From positions 438 through 10,851 of the forward strand of contig DJPP01000077.1 in assembly GCA_002438575.1 (NCBI GenBank): a DNA stretch of 10,414 nucleotides, in the 5' to 3' direction. Within the stretch, counting starts at the first letter, position 1; the number at the start of each line of letters is the position of its first letter. The notes under the pieces are model-generated. The model saw only the letters and a list, made by a program, of their open reading frames with translations. It searched no databases and was not told the origin of the DNA. The translations under genes were made by a program, and so were the position numbers. Below, one piece after another: positions 1,538-10,414 of the stretch. The DNA is from Oscillospiraceae bacterium UBA6409. Lineage in GTDB: Bacteria; Bacillota; Clostridia; Oscillospirales; Oscillospiraceae.

Positions 1538-2272
1538 ATGCAATCATCTGTCCTTCAGGGGATATTGCTCCCCTTCTGGGGCACGTCGCTGGGCGCGGCG
1601 TGCGTATTCTGCCTGCAAAGAGCGCCCTCCGCCGTTCTGCGCCGTGTGTTGGAGGGCTTCGCCGCCGGGGTGATGACCGCCGCCTCGGTGTGGAGCCTGC
1701 TGCTGCCCGCTATCGACTGGGCGGACCTGGGCCGCTGGTCCTTCCTTCCGGCGGCGGGCGGCTTCTGGCTGGGGGTGCTGTTTCTGCGGCTGCTGGAGCG
1801 CCTGCTGCCGGAGGCTGTTACCGACCGTTCCACCACCATGACCCTTCTGGCGGTGACGCTGCACAACATCCCGGAGGGGATGGCGGTGGGCGCGGCCTAT
1901 GCCGGATGTGTGGCGGCAGGAGCCGCCGCGCCCGCCGCGGCGTTTACGCTGGCGCTGGCCATCGCCATCCAGAATGTGCCGGAGGGCGCCATTGTGGCCC
2001 TGCCCCTGCGTACCGCCGGTGCGGGGAAGGGGAGAGCCTTCCTGGGCGGCGTGCTCTCCGGCGCGGTGGAGCCGCTGGCCGCCGGCGTGACGGTGCTGGC
2101 GGCGGCGCTCATCGTTCCGGCGCTGCCCTGGCTGCTGGGCTTTGCCGCCGGGGCTATGCTCTATGTGGTGGCTGCCGAGCTGCTGCCCACGCGCGGCGAC
2201 CCCGGCCCGGGAGCGCTGGCCTTTGCCGCAGGCTTTACCGTAATGATGATCCTGGACGTGGCGCTGGGGTAG
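1538..2272 (+). CDS. ZIP-family metal transporter (GufA-like)
   Basis: An integral membrane protein of 244 residues with about eight hydrophobic segments, the usual size of bacterial ZIP proteins, which carry Zn2+ and other divalent metals into the cytoplasm. The defining motifs are present: HNIPEG in transmembrane segment 4 (bases 1861-1878) and QNVPEG in segment 5 (1969-1986), the paired metal-binding helices. The Q-for-H change in the second motif is typical of the GufA branch, so it is not a defect. A polar Arg/Asp-rich loop precedes segment 4. Two in-frame ATGs exist at 1532 and 1538. I chose 1538 because GAAAAGGG ends at 1530, leaving 7 bases of spacing against only 1 for 1532. The coding sequence is very GC- and Ala/Gly/Leu-rich. 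Which metal it carries cannot be read. It ends 9 bases before the promoter of the B12-riboswitch transcript, but nothing shows that it shares that control. Confidence 0.9.
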   Translation: MQSSVLQGILLPFWGTSLGAACVFCLQRAPSAVLRRVLEGFAAGVMTAASVWSLLLPAIDWADLGRWSFLPAAGGFWLGVLFLRLLERLLPEAVTDRSTTMTLLAVTLHNIPEGMAVGAAYAGCVAAGAAAPAAAFTLALAIAIQNVPEGAIVALPLRTAGAGKGRAFLGGVLSGAVEPLAAGVTVLAAALIVPALPWLLGFAAGAMLYVVAAELLPTRGDPGPGALAFAAGFTVMMILDVALG

Positions 2273-2281
2273 GGAAGAGGG

Positions 2282-2310
2282 TTGACAACGGCCAATTCCT
2301 GTACTATAAT
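2282..2310 (+). promoter_or_regulatory. Consensus sigma-A promoter driving the B12 riboswitch leader
   Basis: A perfect -35 box TTGACA (2282-2287) and perfect -10 box TATAAT (2305-2310) with the ideal 17-base spacer. Transcription should start near 2317, about 27 bases before the riboswitch aptamer. A fully consensus promoter upstream of a repressing riboswitch suggests that control lies at the RNA level rather than at initiation. Confidence 0.92.
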
Positions 2311-2343
2311 GTCGCTGACAAGTAAATAAACAGTCTGTTGATC

Positions 2344-2569
2344 CAATGTCGCCGGCGGCCGTACAGCCCACCATGGGCCAGGCGTCGGCATAGAAGGAAA
2401 GGGGTACCCAAACCCCGCACGACCGGTACTGTGAGCGCAAGGATGCACCGAAGCGGCGTAAGCCGCCGGGACGAAAGTCCGCCATTGTGGGCGCAAGCCC
2501 ATGAGAAGGTAGGCTGCAAACGAGGTGGGACGACTGTCCCCCGAGGCGCGAGCCAGGAGAATTGCATTG
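2344..2569 (+). promoter_or_regulatory. Cobalamin (vitamin B12) riboswitch aptamer
   Basis: Conserved cobalamin-riboswitch blocks occur in the right order: a P4-like hairpin GGGGT/ACCCC (2401-2416) followed by CCGGTACTGTGAGCG (2423-2437), matching the family's CCGCaACTGTaAGCG; GCCATTG (2481-2487), matching GCCACTG; a TGGGC-GCAA-GCCCA hairpin (2488-2501); TGAGAAGG (2502-2509), matching GGGAAGG; and AGCCAGGAGA (2551-2560), matching the B12-box AGYCAGGAGA. GNRA-type loops cap the hairpins at 2453-2466 and 2469-2480. CAATG (2344-2348) and CATTG (2565-2569) can close the outer P1 helix, so the ends are approximate. Some positions differ from consensus (T in GCCATTG, A in GAGAAGG). Known role of the family: binding adenosyl- or other cobalamins usually switches off the downstream genes. 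It precedes a terminator and genes carrying transcobalamin-type domains. Confidence 0.93.
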
Positions 2570-2637
2570 TGTAGGACGAAGTTGCAGCGGGCGCGCTCTC
2601 CGTGTGCGGGAACCTTGTACCACCATGTAGATGTACC

Positions 2638-2672
2638 ACGCTGACCTCCTGAACGGGAGGTCGGTGTTTTTT
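2638..2672 (+). terminator. Intrinsic terminator, expression platform of the B12 riboswitch
   Basis: A 12-bp stem containing three G-U pairs (2638-2649 with 2656-2667; core GACCTCC / GGAGGTC), a 6-base loop and a run of six T's (2667-2672). It sits 69 bases past the aptamer on the same strand, the normal place for the OFF-state terminator of a transcriptional cobalamin riboswitch. The competing antiterminator could not be identified with confidence. Two direct copies of GTACCAC (2617-2623, 2633-2639) lie just before and overlap the stem base, and could take part in the switch. Confidence 0.88.
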
Positions 2673-2760
2673 GCGCCGCCTTTTCCGCGGCCTGCCCTGT
2701 GGGGCGGGCGGCAGGGGCGGCGACGTCTTTCCGTGGCGCAGGGGCCGTATCTATTGCGTT

Positions 2761-2787
2761 CGCTGTCCGGCCTTGTGCCGGGCAGCG
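2761..2787 (+). repeat. Leader hairpin 1 (possible second terminator)
   Basis: An 11-bp stem with one G-U pair (CGCTGTCCGGC 2761-2771 / GCCGGGCAGCG 2777-2787), a 5-base loop, followed by the T-rich tract TTTCATTTT. It lies within the untranslated leader of the surface-protein gene and could act as a weak terminator or as an mRNA-stabilising hairpin. Confidence 0.55.
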
Positions 2788-2799
2788 TTTCATTTTCGC

Positions 2800-2846
2800 G
2801 GGACAGAGTGCACTCTGTCCCATTTTTCATGCCTTGCATGAAAAAT
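2800..2846 (+). repeat. Back-to-back palindromes in the leader
   Basis: The first element (2800-2821) is a perfect 22-base palindrome with half-site GGGACAGAGTG. Immediately after it comes a perfect 11-bp inverted repeat, ATTTTTCATGC (2822-2832) / GCATGAAAAAT (2836-2846), with a 3-base spacer. The first stem followed by ATTTTT has the shape of a terminator; the second is AT-rich. Such adjacent palindromes also resemble dispersed intergenic repeat units, and a search for other genomic copies would decide between these readings. Confidence 0.6.
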
Positions 2847-2857
2847 ATTTCCCGTGC

Positions 2858-2953
2858 CAAGCTGAGGCGCCGTGTGCTTTTCATCTGCACCGTGAAACGG
2901 TACAGATGAGTCTCCCTTATCAAGCTGAGGCGGCCATTGGCCGCGTGCTTTTC
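2858..2953 (+). repeat. Duplicated leader module flanking a hairpin
   Basis: Two direct copies of a module beginning CAAGCTGAGGCG and ending GTGCTTTTC: copy 1 at 2858-2882 (25 bases) and copy 2 at 2921-2953 (33 bases). Copy 2 is 8 bases longer and contains the palindrome GCGGCCA-T-TGGCCGC (2930-2944). Between them lies an imperfect hairpin (TCATCTG 2881-2887 / CAGATGA 2903-2909, extended inside by ACCGT/ACGGT after one mismatch). The function is not recognised. Confidence 0.6.
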
Positions 2954-2961
2954 CATAAGTG

Positions 2962-2989
2962 GGGCGGGGATGTTGCCGCATCCCCGCCC
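2962..2989 (+). repeat. GC-rich leader hairpin before the ribosome binding site
   Basis: A perfect 11-bp inverted repeat, GGGCGGGGATG (2962-2972) / CATCCCCGCCC (2979-2989), with a 6-base loop. No T-run follows, so it is not a standard terminator. It ends 29 bases before the Shine-Dalgarno site of the surface protein and could stabilise the processed message or be the last part of a repeat element. Confidence 0.55.
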
Positions 2990-3018
2990 ACCCCCTCACA
3001 CCGACAAAAATTTACATA

Positions 3019-3025
3019 AAAGGAG
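3019..3025 (+). promoter_or_regulatory. Ribosome binding site fixing the surface-protein start
   Basis: AAAGGAG lies 8 bases before the ATG at 3034. An earlier in-frame ATG at 2959 would add 25 residues without a signal-peptide character and sits against the GC-rich hairpin. The site at 3019-3025 and the signal peptide that starts exactly at 3034 settle the start. Confidence 0.9.
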
Positions 3026-3033
3026 AAAGAAAC

Positions 3034-6000
3034 ATGAAAAAACGCATCATCAGTTGGCTGTTGACGATCGTGATGGTCGTCAGCCTGCTGCCCACCTCCG
3101 TGCTGGCCGACACGCCGGCCGCGGAGCAGGAGCAGACGGGAGAGACGGTCTCGGCGGACACGGAGAACACCGTTCCTGCCGAGGATGAGGAGACGCAGGA
3201 GCAGCAGGAGCCTGTCCCGCAGGAGACCAGCGTGCAGACCGTCGATACCCAGGCCGCTGCTGTCAGCGTGCAGGCCACAACGACGCTCGACAGCTATTTT
3301 GAGGGCCTGCCGGTCACCGCGGAGACCGAGCCCGGCAGCCCCAGCAGCACGAACAAGTGGAAGATCACGACGCTTGACGGCGGGAGCGTCCTCATGTCCG
3401 GCAACAAGGGCAAGAACAGCTCCAGCAGCACGCTGCAGCTCACCTTCACAAGCGACGTCCACATGACCTTCGAGTACAAGGTCTCCTCCGAGACCAATTA
3501 CGACAAGTGCACCATTAAACATGGGAGCAATATCCTGGTCAACGAAGTCAGCGGCAATATCGATTGGACCTTGCTGGAGGTCGACGCCAAGATCGGAGAT
3601 GTGCTGCAGGTCGTTTATAAGAAGGACCCCAGCGGAGATAAGAACGACGACTGCGTCTATCTGCGGAATTTCGCCGCCGGTGAAGCACTGGTCATCACCT
3701 TCCATAATGGAGAGGAGACCTATACCCAGAACATCTATGGCGGCAAGGGCACGCTCAAGGCAAACACCTTTACCTCCGACAGCGGTATTTTTGCCGGCTG
3801 GGCCACCACCGATGGCGGTGCCGTGGTGTATGAGGACGGCGCGGCCATCGACAATGTGACCAGCAACATGGACCTGTATGCTGTGTGGTCTGCTGCCTAT
3901 ACCGTTACCCTGACCAATGGTGACAGCAGCGACACTGTGCAGGTGCCCCAGAACAGCACCATCGGCGGCCGCCTGCCCGCCGATCCCAGCAAGACGGGCT
4001 ATACCTTCGGCGGCTGGTTCAACGGCGAGACGCAGCTGACCGCGGAGACGGTCATCTCCGGCAATGTGACCTACACCGCCAAGTGGACCCCCATCACCTA
4101 TACCATCGCCTTCAACGCGAACGAGGGTACCGGCACGATGGACAGCATCACCGCCACCTATGACCAAAAAGTTACCCTGCCTGAGTGTACCTATACCCGT
4201 GTGGGATACGATTTCAACGGTTGGGCGACCTACAAGTCCGCCAGCTATGGTACCTATAGCGCCGGACAGGTAGTTTCCGGATTGACCAGCACAGACAAAA
4301 CTACCTATCAGCTTTATGCTACTTGGAAGGGCAAGTCTGTGACTGTCACAGTTGACCTTAACGATGATAGTACGCCGGCCACTTACTACGGTACGGTGGG
4401 CAGCAACTATAACTATTTGAAGACTTCGGAGGATACCTATTCGCAGACGATCAAAGATCCCGCCCGCACGGGCTACATCTTTGCCGGCTGGTTCGACGCG
4501 GCCGAGGGCGGCAATGCGATCAGCACGTCTTATAAATTCACCGCCGCCGACGCCGAAAACGGCTTTACCATGTACGCCCACTGGACAGAGGCCGTAACGA
4601 TCACGTTTGATGCCAACGAAGGCACCTGCTGGTCAAAGACGAAAGACATTCCAAAGGGCACTGCGTATAGTAAGCTTCCGTCCGCGACGTTAAGCGGTAA
4701 AGCTTTTGATGGCTGGTATACGCAAAAAGAGGGCGGCACCAAGGTGGAAGATACCACTGTTTTCAACGAGAACACCACGCTTTATGCCAAGTGGCGCGAC
4801 TATCAGTACGTCATCAAGTTCAACATCAAATCCAGCGACGAGAGCAGCGTTACCGGCACGATGGCCGATCAGGTCGCCCCCTTCGGGAAGAGCGCCGTGC
4901 TGACGAAGTGCGCCTACTCCCGCGAGGGCTATGAGTTCGCCGGCTGGGCGGAGAGCAGCTACGGCAGCACCATCAAGTATGCCGACGAAGCCACCATCAA
5001 CCGCGAGTGGGAGGAGGACGACTGGGGCTACAACGGCAGCGAGGACAACGAGACGTATAACCTCTACGCCATCTGGACGGAGAAGAAGTCCCCCGAGCAG
5101 ACCGCGGCCGACGCTAAGCTGGATGCCGCCGACAACGCCATCACCGCCACCTACAATCCTGTTTATGGAACGGATACCAATGCCTTGACCATGATCAGCG
5201 CCAAGCTGGCCGCCGCCGGGATCACGAACGTCACTGTGACGGTGAAGGAGGCCGCTTACAGCAGCAATAACTATGTGGGCATCGCCGCCGACGGCACGAT
5301 CCAGTATAAGTGGAACCCGAACGGCACTACGACTGCGGTTGCTGGTACTGTGCGTCCGGTGTTCATTCTGACCTATACCGATGGCAGCAATACTTCCTAC
5401 ACCAGGGAGACTACCGGGTGCCTGTTCAACATGGGCCTCGACGAGGAGAAGGCGATGACCGCCCTGCGCGCCGTGGCGTACCGCATCACCGTCCCCGAGA
5501 CGGTGGAGAGCGCGGGCGATCTCACCAGCCTGCCCAAGTACCCCCTGAAGGCCGGTGTGGACGAGAGCAGCGTCGACTATAGCAAGAGCGACGACCTCGA
5601 GCTGTGGACCACCGCCGCGTGGACCTCCGGCAGCACAGCCATCATTTCCATCAGCGACGGCTCCGACCCCTATTTCTCCCCCTACAAGGCCACGGTGTCC
5701 CTGCCCGCGCAGGACACCTCCGTCACCCTGACGCTGACGCTGACCTATAACGGCCGCGAGGATCTCAAGGTCAGCAAGGCCTACACCGTCAACGTCAAGG
5801 GCAGCGCCGCCCCGGCGGACAACAAGTATCAGACGGCCCTGGACAAGGCCCTGACCGATATTGGTCTGACCAACCCCGAGGACGGCAGCAAGATCGATGT
5901 GAACAACGTCACCAGCGATATCCAGTTCCCCACCACCCGCGATCTGCGCCGCTTGACGGAGGGGGGCTTCGACGGCAAGTATACGCCCATCCTGCTCTGC

Positions 6001-8220
6001 ACGAGCAATGCGGACGTGGTGGTCTCCGCCGATCCCGATACCGCGAACGTCGCGCGCATGGTGACCTACCGCCCGCTGCCCGGCCGGGCTGCCGCCACGG
6101 TCACCGTAACGGTGAAGATTTTGGACCGCCCCAGCGGCGAGGGCAAGGATTATGCCAGCATGAAGGTGCTGGCCAGCAAGGACATCACCCTGACCGTCCA
6201 GCCCCTGACGCAGGAAGAGCTGGATACCGCCGCCGCCTTTATGAAGAAGGTCACCACGGCGGAGGTCTACTGGGAGGGCATCCGCAAGGCCAACAGCGAC
6301 AAGAACAACATCACCGGCGACCTGTACAGCTTTATCGAGATCGTCCCCGACGGCGACGGGTATACGTTCGTTCGCAATGTGGACGACTGGAACCAGTGCG
6401 GCGTCAAGGCTGACGATATCCCCGGTTGGCTCGATACAGAGAAGTACCGCTGCTTCCGATCCTCCCGCCCTTCTGTGGTGGAGCACGAGCTGCTGCGGGT
6501 GCATCGGCCAACGTACAACACCGAGGTCACCATCGACAGCGTGTTCAGCTACACCGAGTACGCCAAGTATTGGGAGAAGTTCCGGGACAACGAGGCCTAC
6601 GCACAGTTTGCCCAGTTCTATCAGCAGCCTGTCTCCCTGACCGTCAAGGTCGCCGGCACCACCGGAAAGGATGACCCCAACGCGCAGAAGGATCTGACGG
6701 CCACGGTCAAGATCACCGGCTATGAGAGCTTCCCCGCTGTGACGGCTTACACCTTCACCGGCGAGGCCGGTCAGACCTGGTCCGCCTGGGATGCCGTCAA
6801 GGCCTGCCTGGACGCCAATGGCTATACCTGCGACGGCTCCGGCAGCTACCTGAAGTCCCTGACCAAGGGCAGCGTCACGCTGGGCGAGGGCGATCACGGC
6901 ACGGAGTCCGGCTGGATGTTCCGCGTTACCCGCGATGGCAGGACCGTTACGCCCAACACCACCCTCGGCACCTATTTCCTGAAGTCCGGCGACGTGGTGG
7001 AGCTGTTTTACACCACGGTCAGTGTTCCGCTGGATCCCGCCGAGACCGATCCCTCCATCACCAACCGTGATTTCGGTCAGGCCTACTCCCAGACCAAGAG
7101 CTTCTCCGGCGCCAGAGCTCTTGCCCCCAATGTGGGCCGCAGTGACGCCGACAGCACAAGCGTCTGGGGCGACTGGATCGTACTGGCCATGGCCCGCAGC
7201 GGCATGAAGCTGTCCGACCAGTTTGTCAAGGACTACTACGCCAAGGTGGAGGCCTATGTCAAGGCCAACTACAACGCCAACGGCACCCTGAAGTACGATG
7301 GCCGGAATGACCTGTATTTCCTCACCGACAACGCCCGATTGGTGCTGGCGCTGACGGCCATCGGCAAGGATCCCGCCAATGTGGGCGGCAAGAACCTGCT
7401 CACTGCCCTAAAGGACAGCAGTGTGGCGCCCAAGCAGACCTCTGACAAGATCTTTGCCCTTATTGCGCTGGACAGCAAGAATTACGGCTCCGCTGCCGAG
7501 TCCCAGCGTTGGGTCGATCTGATCCTGGATGCGCAGGAAACCGATGGCGGCTGGAAGACCTCGGACAGCGCCGCTGCGAGTGACATCGATATGACCGCCA
7601 TGGCGCTGACGGCGCTGGCACCCTATTACGGCGATGGCAACAGCAGGCTGAATGCCGCCGCTGTGGATCGGGCGATCAAATGGCTGTCTGAACAGTATCA
7701 GGCCGGTAAGTATACCAGCTCCGAGACCTGCGCCCAGGTGGTGGTAGCCCTGTCCGCCCTGGGCATCGACGCCAACGCCGATGCGCGCTTTGTCCGCACT
7801 GTGGCCACCGGCGACAGCGAAGTCAGCACCCAGAGCCTGGAGCAGGATGCCAAGACTGTTTCTGTCAGTGTGCTCTCCGCCCTGCTGCAATACCATGTGC
7901 AGGACCAGGGCTTCAAGCACATCTCCAACGGGCCTGTGACCGCCCTCTCCACCGAGCAGGGGCTCTACGCCATGGCCGCCTACCAGCGCTATGCCACGCA
8001 GTCTGAGCGCCTGTACGACATGACGGATGTGCAGGCCGGGCAGGACAAGCCCTCCGGCGGCAGCGGCAATTACTACTATCCCGGCACGGCCGCAGGCACC
8101 AAGACCGACTCTGCCAACACGGCGGATGACAGTCAGATGGTGCTGTGGCTGGGCAGCGCAGTCATGGCGGCGGCAGCCGTTGTGGTGCTGACCCATAAGC
8201 GGAAGCGCGTTTCCAAGTAA
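3034..8220 (+). CDS. Giant surface protein with InlB repeats, DUF4430 and transcobalamin-like alpha/alpha-toroid; probable corrinoid-binding protein
   Basis: A 1728-residue exported protein. In order: signal peptide 1-25 (KKR start, hydrophobic core, cut after VLA); acidic Glu/Gln/Thr-rich linker 26-81; beta-sandwich-like region about 82-213; six InlB B-repeats (Flg_new) 219-681, each ending LYAxW or similar; two Ig-like beta-rich regions about 688-922 and 929-1232; DUF4430 about 1235-1329 (SGWMFRV, then FLKSGDVVELFYT); alpha/alpha-toroid about 1330-1669, with a QW-type motif QETDGGW (1501-1507), SDIDMTAMALTAL and a closing STEQGLYAMAAY helix; Gly/Ser/Tyr linker; a degenerate sorting motif SANTAD (from 1693), a hydrophobic helix and KRKR tail. 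Established: DUF4430 is the beta-domain fold of transcobalamin and intrinsic factor, whose alpha domain is an alpha/alpha-barrel. Here the order is reversed. Squalene-cyclase catalytic DxDD is absent. With the B12 riboswitch upstream, corrinoid capture at the cell surface is the best inference. Another ligand remains possible. Confidence 0.88.
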   Translation: MKKRIISWLLTIVMVVSLLPTSVLADTPAAEQEQTGETVSADTENTVPAEDEETQEQQEPVPQETSVQTVDTQAAAVSVQATTTLDSYFEGLPVTAETEPGSPSSTNKWKITTLDGGSVLMSGNKGKNSSSSTLQLTFTSDVHMTFEYKVSSETNYDKCTIKHGSNILVNEVSGNIDWTLLEVDAKIGDVLQVVYKKDPSGDKNDDCVYLRNFAAGEALVITFHNGEETYTQNIYGGKGTLKANTFTSDSGIFAGWATTDGGAVVYEDGAAIDNVTSNMDLYAVWSAAYTVTLTNGDSSDTVQVPQNSTIGGRLPADPSKTGYTFGGWFNGETQLTAETVISGNVTYTAKWTPITYTIAFNANEGTGTMDSITATYDQKVTLPECTYTRVGYDFNGWATYKSASYGTYSAGQVVSGLTSTDKTTYQLYATWKGKSVTVTVDLNDDSTPATYYGTVGSNYNYLKTSEDTYSQTIKDPARTGYIFAGWFDAAEGGNAISTSYKFTAADAENGFTMYAHWTEAVTITFDANEGTCWSKTKDIPKGTAYSKLPSATLSGKAFDGWYTQKEGGTKVEDTTVFNENTTLYAKWRDYQYVIKFNIKSSDESSVTGTMADQVAPFGKSAVLTKCAYSREGYEFAGWAESSYGSTIKYADEATINREWEEDDWGYNGSEDNETYNLYAIWTEKKSPEQTAADAKLDAADNAITATYNPVYGTDTNALTMISAKLAAAGITNVTVTVKEAAYSSNNYVGIAADGTIQYKWNPNGTTTAVAGTVRPVFILTYTDGSNTSYTRETTGCLFNMGLDEEKAMTALRAVAYRITVPETVESAGDLTSLPKYPLKAGVDESSVDYSKSDDLELWTTAAWTSGSTAIISISDGSDPYFSPYKATVSLPAQDTSVTLTLTLTYNGREDLKVSKAYTVNVKGSAAPADNKYQTALDKALTDIGLTNPEDGSKIDVNNVTSDIQFPTTRDLRRLTEGGFDGKYTPILLCTSNADVVVSADPDTANVARMVTYRPLPGRAAATVTVTVKILDRPSGEGKDYASMKVLASKDITLTVQPLTQEELDTAAAFMKKVTTAEVYWEGIRKANSDKNNITGDLYSFIEIVPDGDGYTFVRNVDDWNQCGVKADDIPGWLDTEKYRCFRSSRPSVVEHELLRVHRPTYNTEVTIDSVFSYTEYAKYWEKFRDNEAYAQFAQFYQQPVSLTVKVAGTTGKDDPNAQKDLTATVKITGYESFPAVTAYTFTGEAGQTWSAWDAVKACLDANGYTCDGSGSYLKSLTKGSVTLGEGDHGTESGWMFRVTRDGRTVTPNTTLGTYFLKSGDVVELFYTTVSVPLDPAETDPSITNRDFGQAYSQTKSFSGARALAPNVGRSDADSTSVWGDWIVLAMARSGMKLSDQFVKDYYAKVEAYVKANYNANGTLKYDGRNDLYFLTDNARLVLALTAIGKDPANVGGKNLLTALKDSSVAPKQTSDKIFALIALDSKNYGSAAESQRWVDLILDAQETDGGWKTSDSAAASDIDMTAMALTALAPYYGDGNSRLNAAAVDRAIKWLSEQYQAGKYTSSETCAQVVVALSALGIDANADARFVRTVATGDSEVSTQSLEQDAKTVSVSVLSALLQYHVQDQGFKHISNGPVTALSTEQGLYAMAAYQRYATQSERLYDMTDVQAGQDKPSGGSGNYYYPGTAAGTKTDSANTADDSQMVLWLGSAVMAAAAVVVLTHKRKRVSK
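3688..5076 (+). repeat. Six tandem InlB B-repeat (Flg_new) coding units
   Basis: Six protein repeats of about 65-90 residues lie within the surface-protein gene, ending at the Trp codons at about 3888, 4086, 4326, 4584, 4794 and 5076. Each starts with a beta strand of the form (V/Y)-T-(I/V)-x-F-(N/D), has a central F-x-GW motif (FAGW, FGGW, FNGW, FAGW, FDGW, FAGW) and ends in (L/M)YAxW or YTAKW. These are the hallmarks of the Listeria-Bacteroides repeat, a beta-grasp-like stalk module of surface proteins. They probably lift the C-terminal ligand-binding domains, or space them, within the cell wall. Units 3 to 5 use visibly more AT-ending codons than the flanking sequence. Confidence 0.88.
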
Positions 8221-8262: not shown

Positions 8263-8289
8263 ATGGCACTTTTATGAGGGATGAGAGAT

Positions 8290-9069
8290 ATGAAGAAAAA
8301 CCACCGATTTTGGCTGCTGGCGCTGGTCCTGTCTCTGCTGCTGACCTGCGCCGCCTGCGGTAAGCAGAAAGCCCCTGCCGCCGACACGACCTCTGACACA
8401 AAGCAGGAACAGACCGCGGACACCAGGAAGGACGATACATCTGAAACGGGCACCACCAAGGCTGACGGCAAGCAGGACGCGGCAAAGACCGAGGATAAGA
8501 CCGTGGACGATAAGAAGCCCGACGAGCAGAAGGTGGCGGACGAGGCCAAGAAGACCGAGGAGGACATCAAAAAGCAGGAGGAAGCCAAGCGCCTGGAGGA
8601 GCAGAAGCGGCTGGAAGAAGAGAAGAAACAGCAGGAACAGGAGCAGCCTGCTGCGCCGGACCCGGACCCTGAACCCGCGCCGGCTCCTGACCCGGCGCCG
8701 GCGGCGTCCGTGTCGCTGTATATCTCCTGTGCCAACGCCGTGGGGATCCAGTCCGGCCTGCCCGCCGGAGGTGTCCTGCTCAGCAGCACGACATCCATCA
8801 CCCCCGGTGAGACGGTCATGCAGGTGCTCCAACGCGCCTGCCGCGACGCGGGCATACCCATGGTCAACAAAAGCGGCTATATCAGTGCCATCGGCGGCGT
8901 ATACGATCACATCAGCGATGCGTACCCCTCCTCCGGCTGGATGTACTGTGTGGACGGCTGGTTCCCCAACTACGGTGCCGGCAGCTATACGCTCTCCGGC
9001 GGCGAAAGCATCCAGTGGCTCTATACGCTGGACGGCGGCGCAGACGTGGGCAATACCTATATGGGCTGA
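8290..9069 (+). CDS. DUF4430 lipoprotein with charged and Pro-rich stalk; probable membrane-tethered corrinoid-binding protein
   Basis: A 259-residue predicted lipoprotein. The N-terminus MKKNHRF is followed by a Leu-rich core and the sequence LLLTCAACGK; the lipid-bearing Cys is C20 or C23 (LLTC or CAAC, neither perfect). Residues about 25-119 are almost all Lys, Glu, Gln, Asp, Thr and Ala, a likely extended or coiled-coil stalk. Residues 120-137 are Pro-Asp/Ala rich, a stiff spacer. A DUF4430 domain covers about 138-259, with the diagnostic block SGWMYCVDGWFPNYGAGSY then LSGGESIQWLYTLDGGADVG. Known: this fold forms the beta domain of transcobalamin and intrinsic factor. I infer an outer-face tethered receptor that shuttles a corrinoid toward the ECF importer encoded next. 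An ATG at 8281 is also in frame, but the GAGGG at 8276-8280 is correctly spaced (9 bases) only for 8290. It lies 69 bases behind the surface-protein gene and probably shares its transcript. Confidence 0.88.
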   Translation: MKKNHRFWLLALVLSLLLTCAACGKQKAPAADTTSDTKQEQTADTRKDDTSETGTTKADGKQDAAKTEDKTVDDKKPDEQKVADEAKKTEEDIKKQEEAKRLEEQKRLEEEKKQQEQEQPAAPDPDPEPAPAPDPAPAASVSLYISCANAVGIQSGLPAGGVLLSSTTSITPGETVMQVLQRACRDAGIPMVNKSGYISAIGGVYDHISDAYPSSGWMYCVDGWFPNYGAGSYTLSGGESIQWLYTLDGGADVGNTYMG

Positions 9070-9187: not shown

Positions 9188-10087
9188 ATGGACGATACGC
9201 TGCGCTCCTGCCATCCGGCGGTGAGCTTTGCCTATTTCGCCCTGGTCATCGCCTGCACGATGCTTTTGATGCACCCGGTGTGCCTGGCACTGTCGGCGCT
9301 GGGCGGCGGGTGGTATGTCGTCCGCCTGCTGGGCGGCAAGGGCCTGCGCCGCCATCTGCTGTGGCTGCTGCCCATGGCCCTCCTGGCGGCGGCGGTGAAC
9401 CCTGCCTTTGTCCACCAGGGCGTCACCATTCTGGCCTACCTGCCCTCCGGCAATCCTTTGACGCTGGAGAGCCTGCTCTACGGTCTGGCCGCCGGCGCCA
9501 TGCTCAGCGCCGTGGCGCTGTGGTTCGTCTGCGTCACCGATGTCATTACCTCGGACAAGGTGGTGTACCTTTTCGGCCGCGTTATCCCGGCGCTGTCCCT
9601 GCTGCTGAGCATGATCCTCCGCTTTGTGCCCCGCTTTGTCCGGCGGCTCCGTGCCGTGGCCCAGGCCCAGCGTCATCTGGGCCGCGATACCCGGACCGGC
9701 TCCCCGGTCCGGCGCGTCAGAAGCGCCCTGCGGGTGTTCTCCATCGTCGTCACCTGGAGTCTGGAAAGCGGGCTCATCACCGCCGACAGTATGCGCTGCC
9801 GCGGCTACGGCCTGCCGGGGAGGACCTCCTTCTCTCTCTACCGGTTTGACCGGCGTGACGGTGCCGTCGCCCTCTGGCTGGCCTTCTGCGGCCTGTATCT
9901 GCTGGGCGGCGGTCTGGCCGGCGGCCTGCGCTTTCAGTATTACCCCATGCTGCTCAGCGGTCCCGTCACACCGCTGGCGATCAGCTTTTTCGCCGTTTAC
10001 GGCCTGCTGTGCTTTACGCCGGTGCTGCTGGACGCCCTGTCCCGGCGCCGCTATCTCGTCCGGAAAGGAGGGACGCCCCATGCCTGA
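9188..10087 (+). CDS. ECF transporter transmembrane (T) component
   Basis: A 299-residue integral membrane protein of the EcfT/CbiQ family, somewhat longer than the common 260-270. Known role: it couples ATP hydrolysis by the EcfA ATPases to toppling of a vitamin-binding S component. Visible: hydrophobic segments at about 10-50, 55-75, 90-120 and 130-150; a cytoplasmic helix with AQAQRHLG (first coupling motif region); the second coupling motif ADSMRCRGYG (199-208), equivalent to the family's A-x-x-x-R-x-RG signature; and two more membrane segments at the C-terminus (about 220-245 and 255-280). The start follows an excellent AGGAGGTGAT. The stop codon overlaps the next gene by 8 bases (10080-10087), so the two are translationally coupled. 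Substrate is set by the S component, which is not in the window; position beside B12-linked genes suggests cobalamin. Confidence 0.9.
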   Translation: MDDTLRSCHPAVSFAYFALVIACTMLLMHPVCLALSALGGGWYVVRLLGGKGLRRHLLWLLPMALLAAAVNPAFVHQGVTILAYLPSGNPLTLESLLYGLAAGAMLSAVALWFVCVTDVITSDKVVYLFGRVIPALSLLLSMILRFVPRFVRRLRAVAQAQRHLGRDTRTGSPVRRVRSALRVFSIVVTWSLESGLITADSMRCRGYGLPGRTSFSLYRFDRRDGAVALWLAFCGLYLLGGGLAGGLRFQYYPMLLSGPVTPLAISFFAVYGLLCFTPVLLDALSRRRYLVRKGGTPHA

Positions 10088-10414
10088 CCTGCTGTGCCTG
10101 GAGCACTTCGGCTTCACCTATCCCCAGCAGCCCCGCCCTGCGCTAACGGACGTGTCCCTCACGGTCCGTCAGGGCGAGTTCTGGGTCCTCTGCGGCGCCT
10201 CCGGCTGCGGCAAGACCACGCTTCTCCGCCAGCTGAAGCCCGCCCTGCGCCCCCACGGTGCGGCCGAGGGCCGCATCCTCTTCGACGGCCGGCCGCTGGA
10301 TGACCTGCCGCCCCATCGGCAGGCCGCCGATATCGGCTTCGTTCTCCAGTCTCCGGAGGAGCAGACCGTCACCGACAAGGTCTGGCATGAGCTGGCCTTC
10401 GGACTGGAGAGCCT
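10080..10414 (+). CDS. ECF transporter ATPase (EcfA), 5' part, cut by the window edge
   Basis: The first 111 codons of an ABC-type ATPase that runs off the right end. Visible: A-loop Tyr14 (FTYP), Walker A GASGCGKTT (39-47), Q-loop Gln90 in FVLQSPEEQ, followed at once by VTDKVWHELAFGLES (97-111). The VTDxVWHELAFGLE stretch is characteristic of ECF-type ATPases and marks them off from ordinary ABC importers. The signature LSGGQ, Walker B and the coupling helix lie beyond the window. AAGGAGGG at 10065-10072 is well placed for the ATG at 10080, inside the end of the T-component gene. It may be a single ATPase followed by a partner, or a fused double ATPase; this cannot be decided here. Confidence 0.92.
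   Translation, partial: MPDLLCLEHFGFTYPQQPRPALTDVSLTVRQGEFWVLCGASGCGKTTLLRQLKPALRPHGAAEGRILFDGRPLDDLPPHRQAADIGFVLQSPEEQTVTDKVWHELAFGLES

Follow-up and report, generated by a model that had tools for sequence, protein, structure and literature searches.

A stalked DUF4430–toroid surface protein and a candidate cobalamin-controlled corrinoid uptake operon in an Oscillospiraceae bacterium

Bacterial relatives of the animal vitamin B12 carriers were described in 2007 by Burroughs, Balaji, Iyer and Aravind, who reported transcobalamin-like SLBB domains fused to N- or C-terminal toroids, located at the cell surface and encoded in operons that also contain CbiO, CbiQ and a further, paralogous SLBB protein, in hosts usually lacking key B12 synthesis genes; in the passages drawn on here, the authors proposed B12 scavenging and lateral transfer to animals (PMC1796856). 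Here we describe a locus of this type in a 10,414-nucleotide stretch of DNA (the window) from Oscillospiraceae bacterium UBA6409 (assembly GCA_002438575.1, contig DJPP01000077.1, positions 438 to 10,851 of the forward strand). Encoded at positions 3034–8220 is a large surface protein with a DUF4430 domain and an alpha/alpha toroid. Compared with the 2007 family as described in those passages, DUF4430, the fused toroid, the second SLBB protein and CbiQ- and CbiO-like genes are all present, and the window protein differs in its InlB-type stalk and in having no LPxTG motif. The architecture and the idea of B12 scavenging are not new, and the window holds a further member of that family; new here are the riboswitch link, the counts of EcfT-like genes, the statistics of domain-order permutation and a structural match of a TD module (toroid followed by DUF4430) in related loci.

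The animal carriers intrinsic factor, transcobalamin and haptocorrin likewise combine a toroid with a β-grasp domain, the toroid being N-terminal and the β-grasp C-terminal, whereas in the window protein DUF4430 comes before the toroid. The cited part of one source places a DUF4430 domain at the C-terminal end of the vertebrate carriers (PMC4350170).

Little is known about corrinoid uptake at the surface of Gram-positive gut bacteria. In its cited sections, a 2020 review on the uptake of B vitamins in the gut names BtuFCD, an energy-coupling factor (ECF) transporter, BtuM and BtuG, and does not name a DUF4430 protein there (PMC6977713); nor is it one of the six open-licence PMC papers in which the term DUF4430 occurs. 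BtuG, a Bacteroides surface lipoprotein, captures B12 ahead of the transporter and can take it from intrinsic factor in vitro, but it is a β-propeller working with the outer-membrane protein BtuB, in fold and envelope unlike the window system (PMC6143338 and PMC6977713, both in part). ECF-CbrT of Lactobacillus delbrueckii imports B12 by an ECF-type route, as proposed here, although it shares its ECF module with FolT2, whereas the module of the window is presumed to be dedicated; the words lipoprotein, riboswitch and DUF are absent from the main text of that report (PMC5997447, in part). Neither ‘riboswitch’ nor ‘B12 element’ occurs in the main text of the 2007 paper. In the open-licence PMC literature, main texts only and in part, we found no experiment showing that a bacterial DUF4430–toroid protein binds B12 and no report of the riboswitch link, and the supplementary files of an RNA regulon survey (PMC3766115) may list such genes.

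Architecture of the surface protein

The open reading frame (ORF) runs from the ATG at 3034 to a stop codon ending at 8220 on the plus strand and encodes 1,728 residues. At its start is a putative signal peptide (3034–3108, judged from the sequence with its boundary set by eye), followed by a stalk of InlB-type List_Bact repeats (3703–5085, outer limits by eye). The repeat family PF09479 matches with an E value of 3.4e-43 in six stretches, the best at residues 522–586, and TIGR02543 matches too; a PDB sequence search with the whole protein returned two internalin B chains and nothing else. The original prediction, made from the sequence alone, had placed DUF4430 directly before a toroid on such a stalk, in a gene downstream of a cobalamin riboswitch, and these elements are borne out.

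Preceding the toroid is the DUF4430, or transcobalamin-like β-grasp, domain (6763–7017), which contains predicted strands and is placed at residues 1244–1328 by a profile built from relatives (51 bits). The Pfam DUF4430 model scores 19.4 bits (E 0.0015; cut-off 23.8) against the fragment 1225–1335, and the domain is not listed in a whole-protein Pfam scan at E ≤ 0.1. Judged by these profiles, the domain is real but weak.

The toroid (7066–8031), delimited by predicted helices and alignment, carries a conserved LYDMTDV at its end. Its AlphaFold2 model (predicted local distance difference test (pLDDT) score of 81.6) has helices at about residues 1345–1654, matches solved toroids and shows the alpha-domain fold of the animal B12 carriers. 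Pfam SQHop_cyclase_N scores 16.7 bits, below its cut-off of 26.2. The DxDD motif that defines squalene-hopene and other class II terpene cyclases is absent from the protein, as had been noticed earlier. A D-x-D-x-T motif with two aspartates remains in the toroid (DIDMT, residues 1517–1521), of which D1519 is kept in all 49 aligned toroids and D1517 in 44 of the 49. Also absent is CGEQ, the thioester motif of the alpha-2-macroglobulin/complement thioester domain, and the sole toroid cysteine is residue 1566.

At the C terminus is a hydrophobic stretch with a basic tail (8137–8217), identified by eye as a putative anchor. The display at the wall that had been predicted is only half borne out, and an LPxTG wall anchor was rejected: LPxTG is absent from the surface protein and from the last 60 residues of all 120 proteins listed by the protein search (0/120, the window's own included). 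At least 104 of these 120 share a near-invariant C-terminal tail (TADDSQMxLWLGSAV and variants, with a basic end) behind differing upstream domains. Going by its sequence, this tail may be an unrecognised anchoring signal that works without LPxTG.

Relatives and their domain order

With the two-domain region as query, 5,310 of 7,996 scored candidate proteins matched at E ≤ 0.001, and a profile search aimed at short proteins matched 1,089 of 7,995. For genomic context, a contig scan with a single fragment confirmed no relatives, and a scan with alignment A1 gave 566; the best 80 of these correspond to 77 distinct loci, a sample biased to close relatives. They come from Clostridia, Lachnospiraceae, Oscillospiraceae, Paenibacillus (20 of the 77), Sporosarcina and others.

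DUF4430 (D) and the toroid (T) share an ORF in 52 loci and lie solely on separate ORFs in 21; D was not found in the other four. As neighbours they stand in the order DT in 46 loci and TD in 34, with 28 having both orders in a single ORF. A DT pair by itself, as in the window, occurs in 17 loci and a TD pair by itself, as in animals, in six. With DT, TD, TDT and DTDT arrays among the relatives, the domain order is freely permuted across the family. The original prediction had treated the permuted order of the window protein as special; because its relatives carry mixed orders, it is ordinary.

Extra divergent toroids, scoring 38–105 bits with the family profile, are present in proteins of Sporosarcina, Paenisporosarcina and Paenibacillus (L012, 5070–5816; L025, 6021–6812; L036, 6309–7193; L073, 5661–6374 and 6555–7250). 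In L012, L025 and L036 the extra toroid lies 24–50 residues ahead of DUF4430, forming a TD module that is roughly as large as transcobalamin. Four other toroid relatives (P0122, P0125, P0126 and P0198) also contain a dockerin (PF00404), which suggests that they may be docked on cellulosome-like scaffolds.

A cobalamin riboswitch and an ECF operon

Upstream of the surface-protein gene, all on the plus strand, are a sigma-70 promoter (TTGACA, 17 nucleotides, TATAAT; 2282–2310), a cobalamin riboswitch aptamer (2329–2583) and an intrinsic terminator with a 13-base-pair stem and a T tract (2638–2667), the last being the presumed expression platform. The promoter matches the consensus at 12 of 12 positions (one site found, against a mean of 0.3 in shuffled sequence). 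The aptamer covers the full RF00174 covariance model (positions 1–189) with its conserved core (GAGCCAGGAGA box) and scores 27.4 bits (E 6.9e-5 in 901 nucleotides; gathering score 31.5). It was revealed by a focused scan; the default Rfam scan of the window misses it because the score is below the gathering threshold. Six terminator-like sites lie within 2250–3100, against a shuffle mean of 0.9, and folding of the leader 2329–2690 gives a z score of −2.96. The leader of about 360 nucleotides between terminator and gene (2668–3033) contains additional terminator-like stem-loops at 2761–2787, 2800–2821 and 2930–2944, as well as a repeat in two near-copies (2850–2882 and 2913–2953) that is perhaps a REP-like element.

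Following the surface protein in the same plus-strand run are three genes on which the original prediction was silent. At 8281–9069 is a secreted DUF4430 protein (PF14478, 58.3 bits, E 1.1e-15), a probable lipoprotein (LLTCAAC) that has no canonical lipobox and does not match the lipobox pattern. It is followed by a CbiQ-type EcfT membrane protein (9188–10087), which has no Pfam match itself and was identified by tblastn to relatives; it matches that of locus L006 at 4.7e-76, and the L006 protein scores 32.3 bits with PF02361 CbiQ (cut-off 25). Last in the run is an EcfA ATPase truncated at the edge of the window (10080–10412; PF00005, E 2.3e-13), whose partial protein scores 65.7 bits with TIGR04520, under the full-length cut-off of 315.

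This arrangement recurs among the relatives. RF00174 was searched over 75 whole genomes, giving 249 distinct matches, which were placed on the loci by genome coordinates and retained only if the locus sequence shows the conserved box; three were excluded manually (L064 3291 and L061 13621, which were taken to lie on a different contig, and L010 10924, which is downstream). A riboswitch lies upstream of the toroid ORF on the same strand in 53 of the 77 loci (two of them, L071 and L074, relying on matches under the Rfam cut-off), against 0.16 expected under uniform placement, a figure that ignores shared ancestry and uses rounded genome sizes. It is within 700 nucleotides of the first possible start in 37 loci, in five of which that start codon falls inside the aptamer or at its end, and farther upstream in 16. 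Where the ORF start is closed and at least 800 nucleotides lie upstream, the count is 50 of 63, and by taxon it is 19 of 20 in Paenibacillus and 34 of 57 elsewhere. Riboswitches may have been missed, because the first-look candidates of several genomes were scored in part. In L039 (5101–5261), L047 (1344–1532) and L051 (6853–7055), a second cobalamin riboswitch on the minus strand stands back to back with that of the operon.

With the window genes as tblastn queries (E 1e-3), EcfT is found in 64 of the 77 loci and EcfA in 63. The riboswitch accompanies the EcfT-like gene: 50 of the 64 loci with EcfT have one, against three of the 13 without it, some of these being short or cut contigs (Fisher p 2.7e-4). 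The window DUF4430 protein matches 73 loci by tblastn; because some of these matches fall inside the surface protein, the lipoprotein was counted from separate DUF4430-only plus-strand ORFs, present in 66 of the 77 and starting within 2 kb past the toroid ORF in 62. An S component (PF07155 over cut-off) adjoins or is fused with the ATPases in all four loci examined. In L028 (11566–14247) and L055 (11546–14281), a single chain of about 900 residues comprises two ECF ATPases and the S component.

Likeness to the animal B12 carriers

Likeness of the toroid alone is weak evidence, because the window toroid matches many toroids. The natural TD module of Sporosarcina (L012, 4950–6167) extends the comparison across both domains. 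In a Foldseek search of its model against the PDB, ranks 1–15 are all transcobalamin, intrinsic factor or haptocorrin, with E values of 2.5e-11 to 1.2e-8, and the next fold follows at 1.6e-6. The idea that the likeness to the animal fold is a chance one was judged less likely after this result. Among solved bacterial domains, RUMGNA_00854 (PDB 3u7z), a single 101-residue construct listed as a ‘putative metal binding protein’, is close; the TD model matches it at E 6e-4 (TMt 0.62) and the DUF4430 profile weakly, at E 0.46. The VIA-align comparison of the window model barely probed DUF4430, its rows mostly covering model residues 118–445.

Proposed function and its alternatives

At the level of the family, the riboswitch, the ECF operon and the structure matches lend good support to surface scavenging of corrinoids by a protein that unites the two folds of the animal carriers. 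For the locus itself, an operon for corrinoid capture and import that is repressed by cobalamin is the best explanation and, in our judgement, a probable one. Because cobalamin riboswitches are OFF switches (PMC11477304, in part) and a terminator is present, we infer that low B12 relieves the riboswitch: with coenzyme B12 in short supply, the aptamer would leave the terminator at 2638–2667 unformed and the operon would be expressed. The surface protein would then present the toroid and the DUF4430 β-grasp past the envelope, where the pair would form a two-domain clamp on a corrinoid ligand, as in transcobalamin and intrinsic factor. From there the corrinoid would be handed over to the membrane-bound DUF4430 protein and would enter through a dedicated ECF transporter composed of the S component, EcfT and EcfA.

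Several observations weigh against this account. Within the window, the aptamer is under the Rfam cut-off (27.4 versus 31.5 bits) and is separated from the gene by 450 nucleotides with further terminator-like stems between, the surface protein has no LPxTG, and an ECF S component, if any, would lie outside. Among the relatives, 24 of the 77 loci have no upstream riboswitch: in ten the ORF is cut or has less than 800 nucleotides upstream, in L032 the genome was outside the riboswitch search and was counted as ‘none’, and at this sensitivity the other 13 truly lack one. Transcobalamin is just Foldseek rank 23 for the window's own model. The TD model aligns with intrinsic factor along 344 residues, but the root-mean-square deviation is 19 Å and its linker is mostly below pLDDT 50; the animal clamp geometry is not reproduced. 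A 40-sequence DUF4430 profile has transcobalamin-2 as its top PDB match, but weakly (E 0.012), other transcobalamin chains scoring 0.24–0.28 and an unrelated reductase 0.32; the window DUF4430 protein alone as query does not find transcobalamin.

In sequence, the toroid profile comes closest to squalene-hopene cyclases (E 2e-20), and its matches at E ≤ 10 include neither transcobalamin nor intrinsic factor. Cobalamin_bind (PF01122) matches none of the 49 toroids at E ≤ 0.01 and none of the window proteins, either in the whole scan (E ≤ 0.1) or in the fragment scan (E ≤ 10). What ties the toroid to the animal alpha domain is structure; its sequence leads to squalene-hopene cyclases and not to intrinsic factor. 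The B12 scavenger of the original prediction is partly supported, through the family-level riboswitch, operon and structure; of the profiles that it had named, DUF4430 is recovered with the family profile and Cobalamin_bind is not recovered.

ECF modules transport many cargoes, and the same capture machine could serve a different one: a B12 precursor, another tetrapyrrole or a cobalt complex in place of complete cobalamin. In two loci the S components are recognised by riboflavin, folate and general S-component models and not by a cobalamin-specific one, and the wording of the 2007 authors, in the part cited, was ‘B12 or its precursors’ (PMC1796856). Cobalamin riboswitches upstream in 53 of the 77 loci nevertheless tie the operon to corrinoid status, and in structure the TD module comes closest to B12 carriers, which leaves another cargo unlikely.

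An enzymatic role for the toroid outside the cell, of terpene-cyclase or polysaccharide-active type and with DUF4430 as a mere binding module, is very unlikely: DxDD is lost, isoprenoid substrates would not be expected where a secreted protein acts, and the gene is linked to B12 control and to ECF components. Least probable is a role of the surface protein as an adhesin or in structure, with a B12 operon next to its gene by chance. The long stalk of InlB-type repeats and the 450 nucleotides between aptamer and gene would suit such a role, but a riboswitch lies no more than 700 nucleotides from the first possible start of the toroid ORF in 37 of the 77 loci, and the link holds both in Paenibacillus (19/20) and in other taxa (34/57).

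Should the corrinoid capture operon be as proposed, it would include a riboswitch-controlled, intrinsic-factor-like receptor, a Gram-positive counterpart of BtuG and a possible competitor for host B12. The 2007 proposal that such bacteria were the source of the animal B12 carriers could also be tested on it. The prediction made in 2007 is rendered sharper and directly testable by the riboswitch statistics and the structure match of the TD module. A broader version, which we regard as doubtful, is that B12 capture with interchangeable jaws is widespread in Gram-positive bacteria and has been overlooked since the 2007 prediction. Arrays such as DTDT would bind several corrinoids per chain, and where the jaws are on separate proteins, corrinoid would be passed along by β-grasp swapping, the surface protein giving way to the membrane DUF4430 protein and this in turn to the S component. 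The animal carriers would be one TD module captured from such arrays.

Genes preceding the operon

Ahead of the promoter, also on the plus strand, are genes for a TrkA-type protein (16–663), a nitroreductase (766–1281) and a ZIP transporter (1532–2272).
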